Positions 25,762 through 59,566 of a DNA stretch of 64,000 bases are shown here, one piece after another (position 1 is the stretch's first letter; every line of letters starts with the position of its first letter). The position numbers and the translations under genes are program-made. Origin of the DNA: Thermodesulfobium sp. 4217-1. Lineage in GTDB: Bacteria > Thermodesulfobiota > Thermodesulfobiia > Thermodesulfobiales > Thermodesulfobiaceae. The stretch spans positions 148,345 through 212,344 of the forward strand of contig NZ_JBAGBW010000001.1 in assembly GCF_039822205.1 (NCBI RefSeq). The letters run 5' to 3'. The notes beneath the pieces were generated by a model, which had not been told where the DNA came from, made no database searches, and was given only the letters and a program-made list of their open reading frames with translations.

Positions 25762-26631
25762 ATGATAGATCTTTCTCAAAGGGCACAAGAAAATATGAAG
25801 CAAATCTTGGATAGAGTATCTGATATACCCCCTTTACCACATATAGTAATAGAAGCTCTAAACATTATAAAAGATCCAAAATCAACGGCGGTAAATCTGG
25901 CAAACGTTATAAGTCAGGATCAGGCTCTTACGGCAAGAGTTTTAAGGCTTTCAAACGCTGCCTATTTTGGATATGCAAGAAGGATCAAGACTGTTACTGA
26001 GGCAATTGTTATATTGGGGTTCGGAGTAGTTGAAAACATACTTTATGCAGCAGCTCTTCATGCGCACTTGTCCAAGGAGGTTGAGGGCTATGAACTTCAA
26101 AAAGGAGCTCTTTGGGAACACTCAATGTCTGTGGCTATCGGAGCAAAAACTCTTGCAAAATTAATAAAATATCCTAAGCCAGAAGAGCCATTTACCGCTG
26201 GAATACTTCACGATATAGGCAAAACTATAATCGGCAAATTTGTTCAAAAGGAATTTCAGACCATAAATGAACTTGTAGAAGAGGGCAAGTCATTCCAGGA
26301 AGCTGAGATCGCAGTTCTTGGGTTTGATCATGCATATCTTGGCGGCAAAGTTGCTGAAAAATGGAATTTACCTCCAATGCTGATTGAAGCTATTGCTCAT
26401 CATCACAGCCCAATGGATGCTAAGGATTTTGTAGACATTGTTTGCATTGTCCATATTGCTGATGCAGTCGCCCTTATGAGTGGTCAGGGGGTCGGTGCCG
26501 ATGGTCTTTTGTATAGGCTGGAGCCTAAGGCCATGGAGGTATTAAATATTAAAGAAGAGCACCTTGAAAACATTTACACTCAAGTTGTCCAGGCATTCAT
26601 AGACCACAGACAACTTTTGGAGATAGACTGA
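25762..26631 (+). CDS. HDOD domain protein
   Basis: A 289-residue HDOD-domain protein with the N-terminal pattern DIPPLPHIVIEALNIIKDPKS and SQDQALTARVLRLSNAAYFG, followed by the HD-like core where HDIGK and IAHHHSP survive. HDOD proteins are signalling helpers related to HD-GYP phosphodiesterases but usually lack catalysis. Because some histidine/aspartate residues remain, activity cannot be excluded from sequence. It is locked into the che operon, 2 bp after cheA and overlapping flgB by one base. Confidence 0.88.
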   Translation: MIDLSQRAQENMKQILDRVSDIPPLPHIVIEALNIIKDPKSTAVNLANVISQDQALTARVLRLSNAAYFGYARRIKTVTEAIVILGFGVVENILYAAALHAHLSKEVEGYELQKGALWEHSMSVAIGAKTLAKLIKYPKPEEPFTAGILHDIGKTIIGKFVQKEFQTINELVEEGKSFQEAEIAVLGFDHAYLGGKVAEKWNLPPMLIEAIAHHHSPMDAKDFVDIVCIVHIADAVALMSGQGVGADGLLYRLEPKAMEVLNIKEEHLENIYTQVVQAFIDHRQLLEID

Positions 26632-58322: not shown

Positions 58323-58787
58323 ATGAAAAATATCATTAGGTTACAGCAATTGGTTGTTGTTACAATTTTTCTCTCCCTATTTTTAATTTCCTTTTCTGCC
58401 AGTGCATTTTCATCAAATTTGGTAGAAGAGTATCCCAATGCGTCAATTGATTGGGGTAAAAATCAGATTGTTGCGATTGGTTTTGGTGTTGGAGGATTTA
58501 CCAGCTCAGATCCCTTTAAAAGTTCTTACGATGCTGCAATGAAAAATGCTAAGGAAAGAATGATCTCTGTAATTATGATGCTAAAAGACAATAGAGGCGT
58601 TAGTTTGAAACAACTTTTATCTAATCCGCAAAATATGGATAAATTAAATGCATGGATTGAAAACCTTGATGCTAAGGTTCTAAAATACTCTGACAATAGC
58701 GTTAAAGTAATATTAACTGGAACATTGCAAGATAAACCCGACTCATTAGAAAATGCTTTAGGGGTTGAACTACAATCTCCAAATTAA
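58323..58787 (+). CDS. Small secreted protein (LPP20-like)
   Basis: A 154-residue protein with a signal peptide (about 1-29, VVVTIFLSLFLISFSASAFS). The mature part begins YPNASIDWGKNQIVAIGFGVGG and shows an A/K-rich helix (SYDAAMKNAKERMISVIMML), a pattern similar to LPP20-type small exported proteins. There is no lipobox cysteine. Function unknown. It sits between lpxD and lpxC with an AGGAGG site, and lpxC begins inside its last codons in another frame. Confidence 0.65.
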   Translation: MKNIIRLQQLVVVTIFLSLFLISFSASAFSSNLVEEYPNASIDWGKNQIVAIGFGVGGFTSSDPFKSSYDAAMKNAKERMISVIMMLKDNRGVSLKQLLSNPQNMDKLNAWIENLDAKVLKYSDNSVKVILTGTLQDKPDSLENALGVELQSPN

Positions 58788-59566
58788 ATAAGGCTACATT
58801 CGAAGGTATAGGGATTCATACAGGCAAGGTTTGTAAGATTGAGGTTTATCCGTCTGATAAGGGGCTTTGGATAAAAAAAGGTGATATGATTTTCTCAAAC
58901 TTTCAGGATATGGCTATTCATTCTGAAAACGCTACTGTTCTTGAAAATTGTTATTTTAGACTATCTACCGTTGAACATCTTTTATGCGCACTTGCTATGT
59001 TAAACGTTAATGACGCTGTAATTGAAATTTTACAGGGCGAAGAGATTCCGATTTTAGATGGAAGTGCTATTAAATTCTTTAAAAAATTATCTGATGTTTT
59101 TTCGAAAAAAAATAAAAAAAATATTTTTAAGTCTATTGAAAAGCCAATACTTTATAAAGAAGATGAATCTTTTATTTATCTGTTCCCATATAAAAGGTTT
59201 GAACTTAGGGTTTATTTGGATTATACTTCAAAGGGTTTAGGGCTTCTTAGCGACGAGTTTATTTTCGGAAGAGACAAAAGAGAATCCATTCTGAACTCGA
59301 GGACTTTCGGTTTTCTATCTGACTATGATTTATTAAAATCTAAGGGAAAGGCAATGGGAGCGTCTTTAGATAATGTTCTTGTATTCGATGAAAAAGGACA
59401 CCCTTTAAGGAGAATGAGGAGCTCAAAAGAGGCGTCAAGGCACAAGATCCTTGATTTAATTGGAGATCTTTACCTTAATGGATTTTTGCCGCGTGCCCAG
59501 ATAGTTGCTGTTAGGCCTAGCCATAAAATAAACACAGCAGTTAGTAAAATGCTAAACAAAATATAA
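58775..59566 (+). CDS. lpxC: UDP-3-O-acyl-N-acetylglucosamine deacetylase LpxC (non-canonical start)
   Basis: Zinc deacetylase and committed step of lipid A synthesis. With ATC 58775 as first codon it has 263 residues. The conserved N-terminal TFEGIGIHTGK (8-18) lies upstream of the first ATG (58886), and no ATG, GTG or TTG occurs between the in-frame stop at 58766 and 58886. Zinc ligands are H68 (STVEHLLCAL), H223 and D227 (SRHKILDLIGD), with H250 in RPSHK. AGGGG at 58760-58764 sits 10 bp before the ATC. Starting at 58886 would lose conserved sequence. An ATC start is inferred; a frameshift from the upstream gene is the alternative. Confidence 0.85.
   Translation: MSKLNKATFEGIGIHTGKVCKIEVYPSDKGLWIKKGDMIFSNFQDMAIHSENATVLENCYFRLSTVEHLLCALAMLNVNDAVIEILQGEEIPILDGSAIKFFKKLSDVFSKKNKKNIFKSIEKPILYKEDESFIYLFPYKRFELRVYLDYTSKGLGLLSDEFIFGRDKRESILNSRTFGFLSDYDLLKSKGKAMGASLDNVLVFDEKGHPLRRMRSSKEASRHKILDLIGDLYLNGFLPRAQIVAVRPSHKINTAVSKMLNKI

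Follow-up and report, generated by a model that had tools for sequence, protein, structure and literature searches.

A probable AUC start codon for lpxC in Thermodesulfobium, within the 3' end of an upstream open reading frame

LpxC is the committed step of lipid A synthesis and its level is tightly set. Where does translation of lpxC begin in Thermodesulfobium, a genus of thermophilic sulfate reducers? In the window (the whole stretch of 64,000 nucleotides that we analyzed), the reading frame of lpxC ends with TAA at 59564-59566 and is limited at its 5' side by a TGA codon. The first-pass annotation of this DNA had placed the conserved N-terminal block of LpxC ahead of every standard start codon, and we obtained the same positions:

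58766-58768, + strand: in-frame TGA that bounds the lpxC start upstream, kept in four of four genomes
58796-58828, + strand: conserved LpxC N-terminal block TFEGIGIHTGK, 5' of every standard start in the frame
58886-58888, + strand: ATG, the first standard in-frame start; its use would cost 37 residues, including the GIGIHTG block

Following the TGA, the frame reads ACT ACA ATC TCC AAA TTA AAT AAG GCT ACA TTC GAA GGT ATA GGG ATT CAT ACA GGC AAG. The earliest in-frame ATG, GTG, TTG or CTG is the ATG at 58886, and this codon lies within the fold of the protein.

The lpxC frame and its missing standard start

We found that this frame matches LpxC over nearly its entire length. A profile search with the Pfam model PF03331 (LpxC) matched residues 7-262 of the 265 in the open frame (E = 9.1e-59), and the solved Aquifex-type LpxC (2go3/1p42) could be aligned from residue 5 after the ATC at 58775. 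In that alignment the zinc/catalytic motifs TVEH and RHKxxDLIGD and the late histidine were all found in the frame. The NCBIfam model TIGR00325 also matched (E = 8.6e-45), with a score of 153 bits that is under its curated cut-off of 187. A search of the genome revealed no second copy of lpxC; that is, the gene is single-copy. Based on their sequences, we take the genes of this neighborhood to be, in order, bamA-like, skp-like, lpxD, an upstream open reading frame, lpxC, fabZ, lpxA, kdsA-like and kdsD-like. The identities of lpxC and of its neighbor fabZ are backed by Pfam.

We compared this locus in four genomes, all from one genus that makes up the whole phylum in the collection used. Two of the four are single-contig. 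The lpxC open frames in the three congeners are 265-266 amino acids long and 81-98% identical. Like the window, each congener has the TGA and the ATC at 58775 and lacks a standard start at this site. We also compared lpxC outside the genus, using loci that have the GxGxHTG block and no long upstream frame joined to them. There, a standard start is present 12-18 codons ahead of the block. In Thermodesulfobium, the in-frame stop is 13 codons ahead of the block, leaving a possible start region of 12 codons, and the ATC is 10 codons ahead. An LpxC begun at the AUC would be about two residues shorter at its N terminus than any standard LpxC in the comparison.

Initiation at AUC 58775 and the alternatives

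We propose that lpxC of this genus initiates at AUC 58775, within the 3' end of the upstream open reading frame, and we assign this reading a probability of roughly 80%. The features that bear on it are:

58775-58777, + strand: ATC, the proposed lpxC start codon, present in four of four genomes; from the TGA as far as the conserved block, the frame has no other ATN, CTG, GTG or TTG codon
58775-59566, + strand: lpxC coding region counted from the ATC, 263 amino acids plus stop
58760-58764, + strand: AGGGG (TGGGG in G001, TGGAG in G003), similar to a Shine-Dalgarno (SD) sequence, 10 nucleotides 5' of the ATC
58323-58787, + strand: upstream open reading frame of 154 amino acids with a signal-peptide-like N terminus, between lpxD and lpxC

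A rare ATC start had been suggested in the first-pass annotation, which also noted the AGGGG at the distance that we find. It is the best-supported reading: all four genomes keep the codon, the frame offers no other start-like codon here, SD-like bases precede it, and other genes of the genus have probable ATT or ATA starts (see below). Some of this evidence is qualified. The ATC is embedded in the codons CAA TCT of the upstream open reading frame, so part of its conservation can be put down to that frame. The SD-like pairing is weak (-6.0 to -6.9 kcal/mol, near the median of -6.3 for genes with ATG starts), the spacer is 10 nucleotides, and the SD-like bases are themselves paired in a predicted hairpin.

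The initiator tRNA would read AUC 58775 with a mismatch at the third position, and the N terminus of the product would be (M)SKLNKATFEGIGIHTGK. The initiator tRNA gene that we found is ordinary, with a CAU anticodon, three G-C pairs in the anticodon stem, and C1-A72. We therefore rejected an unusual initiator tRNA as the cause of AUH (AUU, AUC or AUA) starts. In E. coli, AUC is reported to be a functional yet reduced start codon (cited in PMC13068326).

It is unlikely that lpxC instead starts at another codon near 58775 (ACA, TTA, AAT or AAG), or by some other route, for example re-initiation in which the codon is barely recognized. A ribosome re-initiating after the stop codon at 58785-58787 may accept poor codons, and the bases near the start are dual-coding. 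However, the alternative codons either pair less well with the initiator anticodon or vary; the codon at 58790 is AAG, AAG, AAA and AGA in the four genomes.

We consider it quite unlikely that a -1 ribosomal frameshift joins LpxC to the upstream protein, the alternative raised in the first-pass annotation. In all four genomes the two frames do overlap, by 19 nucleotides in the -1 direction (58769-58787), but the overlap, GAA CTA CAA TCT CCA AAT TAA, contains no slippery heptamer of the form X XXY YYZ, and the fusion would put a signal-peptide-like N terminus on a cytoplasmic enzyme.

Initiation at ATG 58886, with the DNA 5' of it untranslated or dispensable, is very unlikely. This ATG is kept in four genomes, but a protein beginning there would lose TFEGIGIHTGK, which is included in the Pfam model and in the solved LpxC structures. 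In addition, an earlier ATG is present in G001 and G003 and is likewise 3' of the block. Protein-coding selection also acts, in the lpxC frame, on the stretch preceding ATG 58886. We counted codon changes in codons 5-36 after the ATC (58790-58885), an interval chosen to lie beyond the overlap with the upstream open reading frame and before the conserved ATG. Between G000 and G001 there were 14 synonymous and 4 amino-acid codon changes, and between G000 and G003 there were 13 and 7, respectively. In the remainder of lpxC, G000 and G001 differ by 86 synonymous and 43 amino-acid codon changes. The bias toward synonymous changes ahead of ATG 58886 is like that of the rest of the gene, indicating that this stretch is translated in the lpxC frame.

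Finally, one base change could make a standard start, and a base error had been named as something that might overturn the ATC reading, but the same TGA, ATC and missing start recur in four separate genomes, of which two are single contigs; this excludes chance and leaves a negligible probability that a standard start was lost through sequencing or assembly error.

The upstream open reading frame and a predicted hairpin at the lpxC start

Initiation at AUC 58775 would take place inside another gene. The upstream open reading frame had no family match in Pfam or NCBIfam. It is 77-79% identical in two congeners and its C terminus, GVELQSPN, is invariant. The codons for these last residues overlap the lpxC start, and the stop codon, TAA at 58785-58787, is just 3' of the ATC. 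The same region is predicted to fold:

58761-58779, + strand: predicted 7-pair hairpin, 58761-58767 with 58773-58779 and a loop at 58768-58772, in which the SD-like bases pair with the start region

Variants of this hairpin are predicted in all four genomes, with energies of -5.9 to -8.1 kcal/mol (25-mer, -16 to +9); in G003, GGAG is paired with CUCC. Among sampled ATG starts (n = 347), only 2.3% reach -5 kcal/mol and 1.4% reach -6 kcal/mol, which places the lpxC hairpin in the most stable 1.4-2.3%. A 46-nucleotide fold at the lpxC start had a z-score of -2.1, and longer folds (76 nucleotides) were no more stable than shuffled sequences.

The first-pass annotation left out both the position of the start within the upstream open reading frame and the pairing of the SD-like bases, and both point to coupling. 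With the start overlapped, and with both the AUC and the SD-like bases held in the predicted hairpin, initiation of lpxC is probably coupled to translation of the upstream open reading frame. A ribosome that terminates at TAA 58785-58787 would lie over the predicted hairpin and open it, and ribosomes leaving the upstream open reading frame would then probably initiate, or re-initiate, on lpxC. The expected outcome would be low, coupled synthesis of LpxC. This arrangement shares with general translational coupling the overlapping reading frames and a hairpin, holding the SD sequence and the start, that an upstream ribosome can open. It differs in that the putative coupled start of lpxC, judged from sequence, is AUC.

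Rare starts elsewhere in the genus and what they may mean

Rare starts like the one proposed for lpxC seem to occur in several further genes of the genus. We surveyed 464 conserved genes, taken from about one quarter of two congeners, and compared further genes across the genus. In infC, GGAGGT is followed after 7 nucleotides by ATA as the probable start in four of four genomes, and the sole in-frame GTG falls inside the SD sequence. Two genes have no standard start ahead of the conserved N terminus and have ATT after an SD sequence in all four genomes: one for a Gfo/Idh oxidoreductase, where ATT follows AGAGGTGAA, and one for a LivH permease, where it follows GAGGGGAGTGATTTTACA. In a gene for a GNAT acetyltransferase, ATT follows AGGAGGACAAAA in two genomes and AAGGAGGAAATTGAA in the other two. 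Its context, AGGAGG ACAAAA ATT ATT ATT AGA, gives a probable ATT start, and the first ATG in G001 is 26 codons further in. In a gene for a GmhB-like HAD phosphatase, ATT follows AAGAGGAGTCAAAA in two genomes and has a related context in the remaining two; in two species the ATT start is preceded by AAGAGGAG. The G000 version of this gene has a TTG two codons earlier, indicating that the start may have changed recently.

Including lpxC, 6 of the 464 genes (1.3%; 95% interval 0.5-2.8%) are probable AUH-start genes. In an unbiased codon count, there was no excess of AUH codons at SD-spaced positions (20 observed, 20.2 expected, p = 0.56). Isoleucine codons are common, which accounts for the lack of enrichment, and without a genome-wide signal the case for AUH starts rests on the individual genes. 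Candidates at 26568 and 48510 of the window were rejected because overlap with an upstream gene accounts for them. Others were set aside as likely shadow open reading frames, tRNA or rRNA regions, or repeats (71805 in G001). Two further genes of G001 have a possible ATT start after a strong SD sequence and a standard codon close by: a GtrA-like gene (G001:C1:411849-412310) and an ArsR-like gene (G001:C1:471619, minus strand).

There are precedents in other bacteria. The pcnB gene of E. coli has an AUU start; it shares with the proposed lpxC start a rare AUH codon in a housekeeping gene, and the gene and context differ. The start of infC is ATT in E. coli and ATC in Streptomyces (PMC5472188). 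As proposed for lpxC, the autoregulated infC, which encodes IF3, has an AUH start codon (AUU or AUC) in an essential gene. In contrast to infC, lpxC does not encode a translation factor and a direct feedback loop is not evident; lpxC has a weak SD sequence and the overlap with the upstream open reading frame. Streptomyces sigR has a GTC start and is repressed by IF3 (PMC5472188). There a non-canonical start holds down a level-sensitive protein that is not part of the translation machinery, as may be the case for lpxC. It differs in its codon, and repression by IF3 has been shown for sigR and is a possibility for lpxC. In Listeria, an ATT start of infC and an ATC start of rnhC were confirmed, and start-codon reporters ranked ATG > ATA > ATT (PMC13068326). 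As proposed for lpxC, rnhC has an AUC start outside infC. In lpxC there are also the overlap and the predicted hairpin, and the passages of PMC13068326 consulted describe neither for rnhC. Fewer than 0.3% of Listeria core open reading frames are reported to have rare or flexible starts (PMC13068326), a figure that compares only loosely with our 1.3% because the methods differ. The literature searched, which was mostly outside subscription papers, contained no account of a non-canonical start for lpxC and none of Thermodesulfobium start codons.

If lpxC initiates at AUC, its synthesis may be sensitive to the fidelity of IF3. Since other genes seem to have rare starts as well, we treat regulation by it as an idea: a weak start may limit the level of LpxC through initiation fidelity. 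In E. coli, LpxC is controlled through proteolysis by FtsH (PMC12444477). A broader proposal, which we regard as tentative and rather doubtful, is that the genus has relaxed start choice (about 1% or more of genes at AUU, AUC or AUA), and that the AUC start and coupling hairpin make LpxC synthesis depend on the level of IF3 and on whether the upstream envelope gene is translated, either in place of proteolytic control of lipid A synthesis or alongside it. If true, a conserved AUC start inside the upstream envelope gene would mean translational control of LpxC, unlike the FtsH proteolysis of E. coli. In this lineage, annotation limited to the usual start codons would cut short, or overlook, lpxC and the genes for LivH, the GNAT acetyltransferase, the oxidoreductase, the GmhB-like phosphatase and IF3.
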